This document shows, piece after piece, positions 18,243 through 22,879 of a stretch of DNA of 50,975 nt; position 1 is the first letter of the stretch, and each line of letters opens with the position of its first letter. The notes beneath the pieces were generated by a model. The model was given only the letters and a program-made list of their open reading frames with translations. It did not search any database and was not told the origin of the DNA. The translations under genes were made by a program, and so were the position numbers. This DNA comes from a virus. Location: positions 1 to 50,975 of IMG/VR virus record IMGVR_UViG_3300021178_000004; one strand, written 5' to 3'.

Positions 18243-18707
18243 ATGGCCGCACCTCAACTCGCATCGATCCTCGATCGCCAAGGCACCGAGATTGAGCGAC
18301 CGAAGCCTTTGCCTGTCGGCACCTACCGAGCTATCGTAGTCGGCGCACCGAAGTTCGACAAGTCCACGAAGAAGGGAACGGACTATGTCGAGTTCACCCT
18401 CAAGTTCACCTCAGCTGAGGAGGACGTGGACGAGGACGATCTCAGACACGCCCTGACGAAGCCTTCGGGCGATACCATTCCCCTCACCGAGAAGACCACC
18501 CGCAACACCTACTACCTCACCGAAGACGCTGCTTGGCGATTGAAGGACTTCCTCAAGCATTGCGGCGTCTACGACGAGGACTCTAGCCTTCGCCAGATGA
18601 TCGCCAACACCCAGAACTGCGAAGTCCTAGTCAGCCTCAAACACACCCCCTCCGACGATGGCGAAGCCCTCTACGCCAACGTCGCCAAGACCGCTGCGGT
18701 CTCGTGA
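18243..18707 (+). CDS. ssb: Single-stranded DNA-binding protein (DUF669-like)
   Basis: A 154-aa protein with the beta-rich beginning LPVGTYRAIVVGAPKFDKST, TDYVEFTLKF, and an acidic loop EEDVDEDD, as in phage OB-fold SSBs of the DUF669 type. These coat single strands and pair with Sak4-type annealing ATPases; the Sak4-like gene is just upstream. The acidic tip usual at the SSB C-terminus is absent. The assignment rests on fold pattern and context. Confidence 0.75.
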   Translation: MAAPQLASILDRQGTEIERPKPLPVGTYRAIVVGAPKFDKSTKKGTDYVEFTLKFTSAEEDVDEDDLRHALTKPSGDTIPLTEKTTRNTYYLTEDAAWRLKDFLKHCGVYDEDSSLRQMIANTQNCEVLVSLKHTPSDDGEALYANVAKTAAVS

Positions 18708-18745
18708 TGGCTTGTCGGCCTTAACGTCCCGACCGTAGCGAAACT

Positions 18746-18775
18746 CAGGCAAGCGCAAATGCTTGCCTGCTTCTT
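18746..18775 (+). terminator. Hairpin terminator after the recombination module
   Basis: CAGGCAAGC (18746-18754) pairs perfectly with GCTTGCCTG (18761-18769) around GCAAAT, followed by CTTCTTCC. The core GCGCAAATGC recurs in the terminator at 23742-23759. The 152-base gap 18708-18859 holds no other feature I can support. Confidence 0.65.
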
Positions 18776-18859
18776 CCTGCTGAGCGAGCCTGAAAACAAG
18801 GTCTAGAGCCTGTATGGCATTAGGGCAGTCTCCCCTCTCAGAGCGGTCAGCACCAGACG

Positions 18860-19915
18860 GTGGCTAAAGGACGGCAGTCGGATGCGTGGATCGCAATGAA
18901 AAACAAATTGATGATTATAGGAGAAAGTTGGGGCGTCGAAGAAGAACGCGAACGCACCGCCTTCGTCGGCTCCACCGGCTGGGAACTAAACAAACTCCTC
19001 GCCGAAGCCGGCATACACCGCGCCGACTGCTACCTGACTAACGTCTTCAATCTCCACCCACCCAGCAACAAGATCGAGGCCTTCTGTGGAACCAAAGCCG
19101 AAGGAATCGCAGGATACCCCGCACTCGTTAAAGGGAAGTATGTTCGAGCCGAGTTTGCCTCCGAACTTGCCAGACTCGGCGGCGAGATACTTGAAGTCAA
19201 TCCCAACCTCATTCTGGCGCTCGGAAATACGGCTATGTGGGGAGTGCTTGGTAAAACTACTATATCTAAACTCAGAGGCACCACTTCCACCTCTAGCCAT
19301 ACAGTTGCTGGCTACAAAGTCCTGCCCACATATCACCCCGCCGCCATCTTCCGGCAATGGGAACTCCGACCCACCCTCGTCATCGACCTAATGAAGGCCG
19401 CAAGGGAGCAAGAGTTCCCGGAGATACGGAGGCCGAAGAGGGAAGTATGGATAGAGCCGACGTTGGAGGATATAGATGAGTTCGACAGACGATATCTCAC
19501 AAGCTGCCAAAGAGTTGCTGTTGACATTGAAACGGCTGGACACGTTATCACGTGTATTGGATTTGCTCCCTCAAAATCGTTGGGAATCGTTATACCTTTC
19601 TCTCACCCGAGACGATTGGGCAATAGCTATTGGCCGACACAGCAGCACGAGTATTCGGCTTGGAAGGCTGTTCGAGCGATTCTCGAACGAAAGACTTTGA
19701 AGAAGGTCTGCCAAAATGGGATGTACGATGTAGCGTTTTTGTGGAGGGCGTATGGAATCAGAACGTATGGCTTTGAAGAAGACACTATGTTGCTACATCA
19801 CAGCTTACAACCTGAGTCACTTAAGGGCTTAGGTTTCCTAGGCTCAATCTACACCGACGAAGGGGCCTGGAAGCAGATAAGGTCGAAGCATGAAACCATT
19901 AAGAGGGACGATTGA
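18860..19915 (+). CDS. Uracil-DNA glycosylase fused to a 3'-5' exonuclease domain (N-terminal part of the replicative polymerase)
   Basis: A 351-aa protein. Residues about 15-180 are a UDG of the family 4/5 type: GESWG (21-25), TAFVGSTG, YLTNVFNLHPPSNK and HPAAIF (159-164). It lacks the cysteines for the usual Fe-S cluster. Residues about 215-351 are a DEDDy exonuclease: Exo I VAVDIETAG (Asp222, Glu224) and Exo II NGMYDVAF (286-290), then HHSLQPESLKGLGFLGSIYT as in phage polymerases. Exo III is missing here and lies in the next ORF. The domains remove uracil and proofread. An alternative start is ATG 18896. The end overlaps the polymerase ORF by four bases. Confidence 0.88.
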   Translation: MAKGRQSDAWIAMKNKLMIIGESWGVEEERERTAFVGSTGWELNKLLAEAGIHRADCYLTNVFNLHPPSNKIEAFCGTKAEGIAGYPALVKGKYVRAEFASELARLGGEILEVNPNLILALGNTAMWGVLGKTTISKLRGTTSTSSHTVAGYKVLPTYHPAAIFRQWELRPTLVIDLMKAAREQEFPEIRRPKREVWIEPTLEDIDEFDRRYLTSCQRVAVDIETAGHVITCIGFAPSKSLGIVIPFSHPRRLGNSYWPTQQHEYSAWKAVRAILERKTLKKVCQNGMYDVAFLWRAYGIRTYGFEEDTMLLHHSLQPESLKGLGFLGSIYTDEGAWKQIRSKHETIKRDD

Positions 19916-21402
19916 GAATCATCCACACCGACACCACCGATCCCAGCGATCTTAAGCCCTGGGAGCGCGACCAAGTCTACAACGGTCTCGACGCTTGTGT
20001 AACCGCGGAGGTCTTAGATGCCTTGCTCCCACAGCTTGATAACCTCACTGAATCAACGTACGCCTTTTCTCGTGCACTTCAAGGCCCGGTGCTCGAGATG
20101 CGACTACGCGGTGTCCTTGTCGATCAGCATCGCAAGGCCGAGGTCATTGAGGAGTACTACCAAAACCTTGACCACCTCGAGCGAAATCTGGAACGAATTG
20201 TGCGAGAAGGAATTGGCTTCTACGGGTTTAACTGGCGTTCTAATGATGATCTCAAAGCTCTTTTCTATGATGAACTTGGAATACCACCAGTTAAATTCCA
20301 AGGTCGAATCACCGTCAACGCCAACGCCTTAGAGAAGATCGCGGACTATCTCCCTGCGAGGCAAATCGTCGCGCATATGCTGGCGATGCGCGATATAGCG
20401 AAGAAGATATCAACGCTTAAAACATCGGTGGATAGAGATGGTCGAATCCGTACCTCGTATAATATTGCCGGAACAAGTACGGGCCGCTTCAGTTCGTCTT
20501 TTAGCGAGTTTGGAACGGGAGGCAATCTACAGAACGTGGAGGAATCTCTCAGGTCAGTCTTCATCGCTGACCCAGGCCAGAAGCTCGCAAAGTTCGACGC
20601 TAAGTCAGGAGAATCTTACTGCGTGGGAGCAATCGAGTGGAACCTTTTCCGTGATGGGAAGTATTTGGATGCCTGCGAGTCAGGCGATCCCCACACGGCC
20701 ACCGCCCGCCTCTGCTGGCCCAAAGAACTCCCTTGGACAGGAGACCTAGATCATGACAAGAAGATCGCTGAAACCCCTTACTATCGCCATTATACTTACC
20801 GGTTTATGTGCAAGAAGCTCGGCCACGGAAGTAATTACCTCGGAAAGGCCTCCACCTTGGCTCAGCAAAGCCGAGTTGATGTGTCCGCGGTTGATAGATT
20901 TCAGATCGCATACTTCAAAGCTTACCCGGGGCATTTGCGCTGGCATGCTTATAAGAGACAAGAGCTTAGGGAGACAGGGCAACTCACCTCCCTTACAGGT
21001 AGGCGTCGTTATTTCTTCGGCCGGAGAGACTCTGATGACACTGTGCGGGAGGCTATGGCCTACGACCCACAATGTTCCCTTGCCGACATCGTCAATAACG
21101 GCATGCTTAGTGTATGGCGCGAACGGGCGGCTACCTTGCTTATGCATGATCACGACGCCCTAACGGTTCAGTATCCAGAAGAGATGGAAGATGAGATCGT
21201 TCCTAATATTCTTGAGCAGTTACGATATCCTCTTGAGCTTGCGGATGGGCGGATTCTAGAAATCCCCTATGATTGTGTGACAGGTTTCAACAAAGGCAAA
21301 TGGGATGAGAAGAAGAACCCAGATGGATTAAAGGAATATGTGCCAGGAGATAAGCGCAAACGCACTCCTCAAGTAGGGCTGCTCGACCGAATAGTAAGGT
21401 AG
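19912..21402 (+). CDS. polA: Family A DNA polymerase (C-terminal part, carries Exo III)
   Basis: A 496-aa polymerase module. YNGLDACVTAEV (Tyr23, Asp27) is the Exo III motif that completes the exonuclease of the upstream ORF. Polymerase motifs: TSTGRFSS (188-195), motif A KFDAKSGE (Asp229, Glu234), O-helix R297-x3-K301-x3-H305-x3-Y309, TGRRRYFFGR, and motif C DHDAL (His414, Asp415, Ala416 where most have HDE). Histidine stands where E. coli Pol I has Phe762. The frame opens at 19903 and the only start is TTG 19912, overlapping the previous TGA. A one-base shift between 19903 and 19915 would join both into one UDG-exo-pol of about 850 aa. Confidence 0.92.
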   Translation: MRIIHTDTTDPSDLKPWERDQVYNGLDACVTAEVLDALLPQLDNLTESTYAFSRALQGPVLEMRLRGVLVDQHRKAEVIEEYYQNLDHLERNLERIVREGIGFYGFNWRSNDDLKALFYDELGIPPVKFQGRITVNANALEKIADYLPARQIVAHMLAMRDIAKKISTLKTSVDRDGRIRTSYNIAGTSTGRFSSSFSEFGTGGNLQNVEESLRSVFIADPGQKLAKFDAKSGESYCVGAIEWNLFRDGKYLDACESGDPHTATARLCWPKELPWTGDLDHDKKIAETPYYRHYTYRFMCKKLGHGSNYLGKASTLAQQSRVDVSAVDRFQIAYFKAYPGHLRWHAYKRQELRETGQLTSLTGRRRYFFGRRDSDDTVREAMAYDPQCSLADIVNNGMLSVWRERAATLLMHDHDALTVQYPEEMEDEIVPNILEQLRYPLELADGRILEIPYDCVTGFNKGKWDEKKNPDGLKEYVPGDKRKRTPQVGLLDRIVR

Positions 21403-21405
21403 ACC

Positions 21406-21648
21406 ATGCATCCATTCGCATTCAAAAATAAGTCCGGCGGAAACTCTGGTGCCTGGAATGAGGTTCATTCAGGCGGCCATGTCATATACCTCATAGATGG
21501 TCGAACAGGAACATTAGATGAATGCCTTCATGATGGAGATGCATTCGTTACTTGGGATGACGGTAGCTTTGGCACCGTGAAGTGGCATCATTTAGCTCCG
21601 TCATCAAAGGTAAAAGTAATAGGTGATAGATGGGAAGCTATCCTATAA
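21406..21648 (+). CDS. Hypothetical 80-aa SH3-like protein
   Basis: Begins MHPFAFKNKSGGNSGAWNEV; the remainder (VIYLIDGRTGTLDECLHDGD, AFVTWDDGSFGTVKWHHLAP) reads like a small five-stranded barrel, as in SH3 or KOW-type domains. Function unknown. Located three bases after the polymerase stop. Confidence 0.68.
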   Translation: MHPFAFKNKSGGNSGAWNEVHSGGHVIYLIDGRTGTLDECLHDGDAFVTWDDGSFGTVKWHHLAPSSKVKVIGDRWEAIL

Positions 21649-21658
21649 GGGGAATTAT

Positions 21659-22879
21659 GTGGCTGATAAGTCCAAGAACGGCTCAGATAAGCGAAAGCTA
21701 TCTAGCTGGATCGACTCCTTCCTGGAGTTCACCGATAACCTTGAAACCTCCCCAACCTATCGGCTATGGGCAGCGATAAGCGCTATAGCAGCAACCATGG
21801 AGAGAAAGACATGGCTGTTCGAGAACGATCCATTGTACCCAAATTTGTATGTACTACTTGTTGGAGGGGCTGGAACAGGAAAGACAAGATCAATACGTGC
21901 GGCACGAAACTTTGTAAGGTGTTTGCCAGAGCCTTTACTGGCGCCTACTTCTATGACGATGGCCTCGATGGCGGACATTCTCAATGATTCTAAAAGGATT
22001 ATCGTCCGCCATCCGGAAGCTCCCCTTGAATACAACACCTTGTACATTGCCATTAACGAGCTATCCGCGTTTATGCATGATTACAAGCACGCGGGGGAAC
22101 TCGTGGCAGGTCTTACGGATATATACGATTGCGACCACTACGGGCAGGCTCGTCGTGGTGGGGACTTGCGAATATCCATCGAGAACCCACAGCTGAATAT
22201 TATTGCGGGATCGACCCCCGCTCGGCTCATCAATCTCATCCCCGAATACGCCTGGGAAGACGGCTTCACCTCTCGAATCATCATGATCTACGCCGACGAC
22301 AAGCCCTCGATCGATATCTTCCACTCCGCTATCAAGCTAATGCCAAATGACATGATCCACGACCTCAAGATCATCAACTCTATAATCGGCGAGTTCACTT
22401 GGACTGAAGAGTGGACCGAAGCGATGAACGCTTGGAAGGAATTGAAGTTCAAGCCAGTGCCGAGTCATCCGAAGCTGGAGCATTATTGCACTCGACGATT
22501 CACCCATTTGATGAAGTTGTCGATGATTTCTTCGATCGATCGCTCGAATGATCTCGTTCTCACTAAAGACGACTTCAACCGAGCCATGCTCTGGCTTCTC
22601 CGAGCCGAGGAGCGGATGCCGCTGATATTCTCCGGAGGACAGGGCGGGACCGATAGCAAGGCCATCGATGAGATCGAGCACTTCATCCGAATGGCCGGGC
22701 CTGATGGGGTGAATGAGCAGTCGGTGCTGAACTACGCCCGCAAGCATATCATGTTCGCGACGAACGTCACGAAGGTCTTGGCGCTAATGGAACAATCCGG
22801 CCTTATCAAGATGACGAAGCTAGATAAACGAACCGGGCTCCGGCATTTTATAGCGAACCAGCAAGCTATTGGTGGATAA
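21659..22879 (+). CDS. DUF3987-like P-loop helicase/primase-associated ATPase
   Basis: A 406-aa protein from GTG 21659, chosen for AAGGGG six bases upstream; GTG 21623 would lie inside the previous gene. N-terminal FTDNLETSPTYRLWAAISAI, Walker A LLVGGAGTGKTRSI (about residues 60-73), a Walker B-type LYIAINELSAF, then sensor-like IIAGSTPARL and arginine-bearing DGFTSRIIM. A winged-helix-like C-terminus follows. This matches the DUF3987 group of phage and plasmid helicase-like ATPases that often replace DnaB-type helicases. It is probably the replicative helicase for the polymerase upstream. Confidence 0.8.
   Translation: MADKSKNGSDKRKLSSWIDSFLEFTDNLETSPTYRLWAAISAIAATMERKTWLFENDPLYPNLYVLLVGGAGTGKTRSIRAARNFVRCLPEPLLAPTSMTMASMADILNDSKRIIVRHPEAPLEYNTLYIAINELSAFMHDYKHAGELVAGLTDIYDCDHYGQARRGGDLRISIENPQLNIIAGSTPARLINLIPEYAWEDGFTSRIIMIYADDKPSIDIFHSAIKLMPNDMIHDLKIINSIIGEFTWTEEWTEAMNAWKELKFKPVPSHPKLEHYCTRRFTHLMKLSMISSIDRSNDLVLTKDDFNRAMLWLLRAEERMPLIFSGGQGGTDSKAIDEIEHFIRMAGPDGVNEQSVLNYARKHIMFATNVTKVLALMEQSGLIKMTKLDKRTGLRHFIANQQAIGG

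Follow-up and report, generated by a model that had tools for sequence, protein, structure and literature searches.

A phage family-A DNA polymerase encoded as two parts, with the division inside its exonuclease site

Phage replication enzymes encoded in two pieces are already known. In Aeromonas phage 25 the T4-like polymerase is divided into gp43A and gp43B, which co-purify with polymerase activity; a free-standing endonuclease gene (seg) lies at the split in this phage, and an untranslated spacer is found there in 44RR (PMC2988022). The nrdA gene of Aeromonas phage Aeh1 is split by a mobE insertion, and its product is still active as two chains (PMC2988022). In the OM43 phages MEP401 and MEP402, two ORFs separated by a small one encode a family-A DNA polymerase; the arrangement is shared by the phage group, and an intron was suggested by the authors as the explanation (PMC10580990). 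Here we consider a viral locus at which the division falls between the second and third exonuclease motifs, and compare it with related loci.

Two overlapping reading frames in the window

The stretch of DNA analyzed (the window) is a virus record of 50,975 bases with no tRNA genes. A sequence-only reading of it had placed Exo I and Exo II in one ORF and Exo III in the next, with a four-base TTGA overlap and a second ORF able to start only at TTG, and all of this is borne out by the sequence and the ORF positions (Table 1). ORF1 ends with the TGA at 19913-19915, and the frame of ORF2, open from 19903 to 21402, has the TTG at 19912 as its only start-type codon near the 5' end. The ORF layout given for the whole extent from 18860 to 21402 also holds, except probably for the beginning of ORF1 at 18860: relatives use the equivalent of the ATG at 18896 (MKNKLMIIGES; the nearest relative, L003, starts MKNRILILGE), so that ORF1 probably encodes 339 amino acids from this ATG rather than starting at the GTG at 18860. 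About 150 bases just upstream (18708-18859), between an ORF ending at 18707 and ORF1, have no evident gene, in a replication region that is otherwise densely coded.

Table 1. Features of the divided polymerase locus, in window positions
Feature	Position	Strand	Remarks
ORF1	18896..19915 (18860 if GTG start)	+	N-terminal polymerase half: UDG-like domain and first exonuclease part
UDG superfamily domain (family-4/UdgX/SPO1-polymerase type)	18899..19372	+	Pfam PF03167, 4.7e-20; P0001 residues 14-171
Exo I, VAVDIETAG	19514..19540	+	in ORF1
Exo II, QNGMYD	19712..19729	+	in ORF1
ORF1 C-terminal tail, HETIKRDD	19889..19912	+	TIKRDD/TIGRDK in close relatives; absent from unsplit relatives
Shine-Dalgarno-like GAGGG	19903..19907	+	4 nt upstream of TTG start
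ORF2	19912..21402	+	C-terminal polymerase half: conserved xRIIxT N-terminus, Exo III helix, family-A polymerase domain; start TTG
TTGA start/stop overlap	19912..19915	+	translational-coupling type junction
Exo III, YNGLDACVTAE	19978..20010	+	in ORF2
DNA_pol_A (PF00476)	20146..21222 (two stretches, 20146-20607 and 20800-21222)	+	7.3e-30; in ORF2
Primase/helicase-like neighbor (phrog_14296)	21623..22879	+	downstream; context only

The UDG domain also matched type-4 UDGs in the PDB and a "Phage SPO1 DNA polymerase-related protein", and Bacillus phage SPO1 gp31 aligns with P0001 residues 14-337. Beyond the UDG domain, ORF1 matches the Pfam family DNA_pol_A_exo1 (1.4e-6); profile positions 17-123 of 173 are covered, which amounts to the beginning of a DnaQ-like exonuclease. 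The assignment of the polymerase to family A is supported by the PF00476 match, the catalytic residues of motifs A, B and C, and a match to the Klenow fold. The proofreading motifs make up a full set (Exo I DxE, Exo II Asp, Exo III YxxxD), divided between ORF1 (I and II) and ORF2 (III). As in SPO1-type UDG-exonuclease-polymerase enzymes there is an N-terminal UDG domain, but instead of a single polypeptide there are two ORFs, here and in all 123 of the loci described below.

The division in related loci

In IMG/VR, 49 relatives were identified by protein search, to which a profile search added 78 virus contigs and seven contigs of metagenome-assembled genomes. Both halves are held by 123 loci, a set that takes in the window and the cultured Caulobacter phage Kuura and includes some near duplicates; a near-identity DNA search of phage records gave no match. 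The cut is at the identical place in 123 of 123 loci, drawn from many metagenomes, and thus the split cannot be a matter of chance. The last residues of ORF1 follow the pattern T-I-K/G-R-D-x (IKRDD- or IGRDK-like tails), and its stop comes directly after them. In every locus the start codon of ORF2 falls at roughly one alignment column; it is ATG (98 loci), GTG (13) or TTG (12), typically followed by (R/K)IIxT to give M/V/L-RIIxT; since 12 loci start with TTG, the start codon in the window is unremarkable. Among the close relatives in the IMG/VR and profile-search loci, no single-ORF form was found. The junctions themselves are varied, comprising 14 NTGA overlaps, 15 of the form TRATG, 10 gaps of 0-29 nt, one gap of 76 nt and 83 gaps of 115-1629 nt; the first three kinds are referred to below as tight junctions (n = 39). 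We regard a conserved two-gene split as practically certain.

Genes 029 and 026 of Kuura (OQ067476) have the same split, with halves 43% and 35% identical to those of the window and two small genes between them, and because Kuura is a cultured phage with a complete genome, its split genes are evidently functional. In the parts of the Kuura description consulted, gene 029 is annotated as hypothetical and the split goes unmentioned (PMC9959647).

One explanation would be an intact single gene interrupted by an error in sequencing or assembly, or by a recent frameshift; it had been proposed in the form of a base lost from the GGG before the overlap, and has nothing in its favor except that two ORFs are seen to overlap. 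The comparative data refute it: there are 39 tight junctions, 83 loci with inserted genes at that codon and no single-ORF close relatives, and the same cut is present in a complete cultured phage. Moreover, the catalytic residues are maintained, and in near-identical pairs of loci the substitutions in each half concentrate at the third position of codons. We give this explanation essentially no weight.

Programmed -1 frameshifting within 19903-19915, also raised in the sequence-only reading, would produce one UDG-exonuclease-polymerase protein, perhaps with a truncated UDG-exonuclease as a second product. The ORFs of the window do stand in a -1 relation, with a Shine-Dalgarno (SD)-like element upstream of the overlap as at some bacterial -1 sites, but none of the 39 tight junctions has a slippery heptamer of the form X_XXY_YYZ within the final 60 nt of ORF1. 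The tight junctions are spread over the three frame relations (31, 7 and 1), and in three loci (L005, L043 and L049) the halves are in one frame, parted by a single in-frame stop. In the 83 loci where 115-1629 nt of other genes separate the halves, frameshifting could not join them, and the ORF2 start codon is retained close to its column throughout. Frameshifting is therefore extremely unlikely.

A different single-product explanation is that a self-splicing intron or a split intein rejoins the halves in the gapped loci, with the tight loci as remnants. Polymerase genes are common hosts of such elements, some of the gaps encode HNH or weakly LAGLIDADG-like proteins, and a LAGLIDADG-bearing insert is found in the polymerase of one distant locus (L143). 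The gaps, however, are covered by ORFs to a mean of 96%, and many of these ORFs have start/stop overlaps of their own, of the ATGA type, with the flanking genes. ORF1 has its own stop right after the tail and ORF2 its own start, and tight and gapped junctions alternate between polymerases whose flanks are ~88-93% identical. A search of 17 gapped loci with Rfam families, including those of group I introns, gave no match at the gathering threshold, pointing to no known intron in these gaps. We consider rejoining by an intron or intein very unlikely.

With no frameshift signal, mixed frame relations, and gaps filled by ORFs without a known intron, two separate products are to be expected. Comparison with homologues had been set beforehand as a test of the sequence-only reading, and the conserved two-gene arrangement that it brought out refutes the single-product readings only. 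Thus, of the three explanations originally offered, a split enzyme, probably one that reassembles, is favored, while the frameshift and the lost base have been set aside.

The GAGGG that had been suspected as an indel site sits where a ribosome-binding site for ORF2 would be expected. Among the tight junctions, 32 of 39 show, 3-12 nt before the ORF2 start, an SD-like match that is 4 nt or longer, compared to 18% of internal start-like codons. Within its last six residues, ORF1 uses AGR in place of CGN for arginine much more frequently than in the rest of the protein (odds ratio 4.8 for tight and 11 for gapped loci), a bias that an embedded ribosome-binding site would produce; in the gapped loci such a site would serve the inserted gene. 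The SD element in the overlap is supportive of separate initiation, although taken alone it is not decisive, as SD elements can also stimulate frameshifts. From the stop/start overlap and the SD-like site in the last codons of ORF1, it is reasonable to expect that ORF2 in the window is most likely started by ribosomes finishing ORF1.

Unsplit UDG-exonuclease-polymerase genes (L053-L056, L059, L143, L144 and SPO1 gp31) are distant and lie outside the split clade. With the very long branch of L059 excluded, the split clade has a support of 100 and is separated from the fused outgroups by one change (FastTree); a FastTree tree that includes L059 nests this fused gene among the split ones, where its branch length of 4.66 was flagged as unreliable. 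The pattern suggests that the ancestor of the clade underwent an ancient fission of its polymerase gene, apparently a single event, within a loop that is both exposed and variable.

At the junction, at least 25 changes between tight and gapped states are required on the tree. In L003 the halves lie 155 nt apart, with a small gene in the gap, and among loci with flanks of ~88-93% identical DNA, L130 and L137 are tight while L134 and L135 carry different inserts of 194 and 225 nt. Inserts thus enter and leave while the halves persist. The insert gene in L135 (2213-2437) has an ending, ..VKRDE*, that resembles the ORF1 tail and would suit a partial duplication of the junction. Among 87 gap ORFs scanned there are nine HNH_3, two Endonuclease_7 and one weakly LAGLIDADG-like match, none of them in the window. 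In a pooled scan of the same ORFs, 14 match DUF7768 and 16 the nucleoside 2-deoxyribosyltransferase family, these being overlapping sets. A 60-residue gap ORF in L048 (3828-4007) matches only the C-terminal part of endonuclease VII and is probably a decaying junction nuclease. Since the split, unrelated small genes, among them nucleases of homing-endonuclease-like families, have settled in the junction and left it time and again. By analogy with T4-like phages, insertion of a homing endonuclease could have been the original cause of the split, but we propose this only tentatively, because at E <= 0.001 nuclease matches are lacking for at least 75 of the 87 junction ORFs.

Conserved residues and predicted assembly

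We scored residue conservation over 107 split loci. The Asp and Glu of Exo I and the Tyr and catalytic Asp of Exo III are invariant (107/107), the Exo II Asp is present in 106 with Glu in the remaining locus, and the polymerase motif A Asp, motif B Lys and motif C Asp are each present in all 107. The UDG motifs are kept in 97 of the 107. The pairwise distance matrices of the two halves are correlated at r = 0.85, against a maximum of 0.14 in 500 shuffles, although a correlation of this kind is also expected from simple linkage.

These counts bear on whether the halves act separately, with ORF1 as a free UDG/exonuclease-like repair protein and ORF2 as a polymerase without proofreading. Separate translation would allow the two to be made in different doses, and the retention of UDG motifs in most loci fits such a role; but ORF1 has no Exo III, and ORF2 keeps an Exo III Tyr and Asp that would otherwise be useless in every one of the 107 loci. 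Partial proteins that never meet would not be expected each to retain its share of a single active site. Separate action is accordingly improbable, and the divided active site, intact on both sides, is the strongest argument that the two chains come together.

A model of the assembled protein was obtained with AlphaFold2 from the halves of L005, reading the in-frame TAG as Gln to give a chain of 865 residues. The alignment (A5) had 40 rows of window and locus sequences, nine of them in-frame read-through rows that served as anchors. The joint model has a pLDDT of 89.9 and a pTM of 0.85, and falls below a pLDDT of 50 only at residues 360-368, the end of ORF1 and the stop, which is the split site; the strand at 371-374 and the Exo III helix at 386-409 are well placed. 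Foldseek aligned this model to Klenow fragment (1kfs) with a TM of 0.75 by target over 659 columns, spanning the exonuclease and the polymerase. It should be kept in mind that the joint model is one covalent chain of a relative (66% identical to the window in ORF2, ~55-60% in ORF1), and the link partly enforces the assembly. The ORF2 of the window modeled alone reaches 88.8 overall, with its first ten residues lacking a strand and residues 1-30 at ~70-80; this local difference in pLDDT from the joint model is only suggestive, as a different protein and a different alignment are being compared.

Compared with unsplit relatives, the cut site is a variable loop between the helix following Exo II and the Exo III helix, and the split form carries extra residues on both sides of it. 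We propose that the N-terminal strand (RIIxT) and the Exo III helix of ORF2 dock onto the exonuclease core of ORF1, which would restore the proofreading site and give a Klenow-like holoenzyme. The conservation of RIIxT and of the IKRD tail could in part reflect translation signals and not docking. Based on the conserved residues and the predicted structure, we believe that ORF1 and ORF2 are probably separately translated subunits of one replicative family-A polymerase that reassemble into a proofreading enzyme, and we put the probability of this at roughly 0.87. As for the split now being selected for, one could imagine that free UDG-exonuclease is dosed separately, giving tunable proofreading or uracil sensing, and that the junction is a dock for co-expressed genes, including nucleases and deoxyribosyltransferase-like genes, that leaves the replicase unharmed; we consider this rather doubtful.

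Other divided polymerases

These loci show that a replicative polymerase can be cut through its proofreading catalytic center, its parts being made separately, and remain so across a broad phage clade. Such a clade offers split points already tested by evolution for the construction of split or inducible proofreading polymerases, a natural system for asking how much a phage gains from proofreading, and repeated examples of gene entry and exit at one junction. There is also a practical consequence, as such genes are misannotated: the exonuclease half in Kuura is labeled hypothetical, and the polymerase half gives the impression of lacking proofreading.

Other arrangements were seen in the wider family. 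The UDG-exonuclease-polymerase of Vibrio phage VS-ABTNL-3 (L057, 3962-7096) is cut inside the polymerase domain, with PVS_28 between the halves, and in ctLwi270 (L058, 1727-4364) the cut falls at a third place, after the exonuclease domain and before the polymerase domain, where ~150 nt separate the ORFs. The unsplit gene of L143 (3987-7250 of a Nealsonbacteria MAG contig) has its LAGLIDADG-bearing insert, of ~340 residues and probably an intein, in the polymerase domain.

A search of an open-access library found no report of a PolA split within the exonuclease site. A clade-wide, apparently single-origin split of a family-A polymerase between Exo II and Exo III thus appears undescribed in the open-access literature searched; split phage polymerases as such are known, and what looks new here is how widely the split is shared and that it falls within the exonuclease site. 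The closest unsplit proteins, SPO1 gp31 and those of Microcystis phage Mel-JY34 and ctMlz233, have the same three-domain order and homologous sequence, but are single ORFs in which the loop at the cut has neither the IKRD tail nor RIIxT. MEP401 and MEP402 are cut inside the polymerase domain, leaving the exonuclease and N-terminal polymerase in one part and the C-terminal polymerase in the other, unlike the present cut. The split nrdA of Aeh1 is likewise an essential replication enzyme divided in a functionally critical region, although it is a ribonucleotide reductase, is found in one phage, and still has the endonuclease gene at the split. The likeness to gp43A and gp43B is that a replicative phage polymerase is encoded as two non-redundant parts and conserved as such in relatives; that split, however, is of a family B enzyme in a few T4-like phages, while the present one is of a family A enzyme in a whole clade, with the cut between Exo II and Exo III and with widely variable junction contents.
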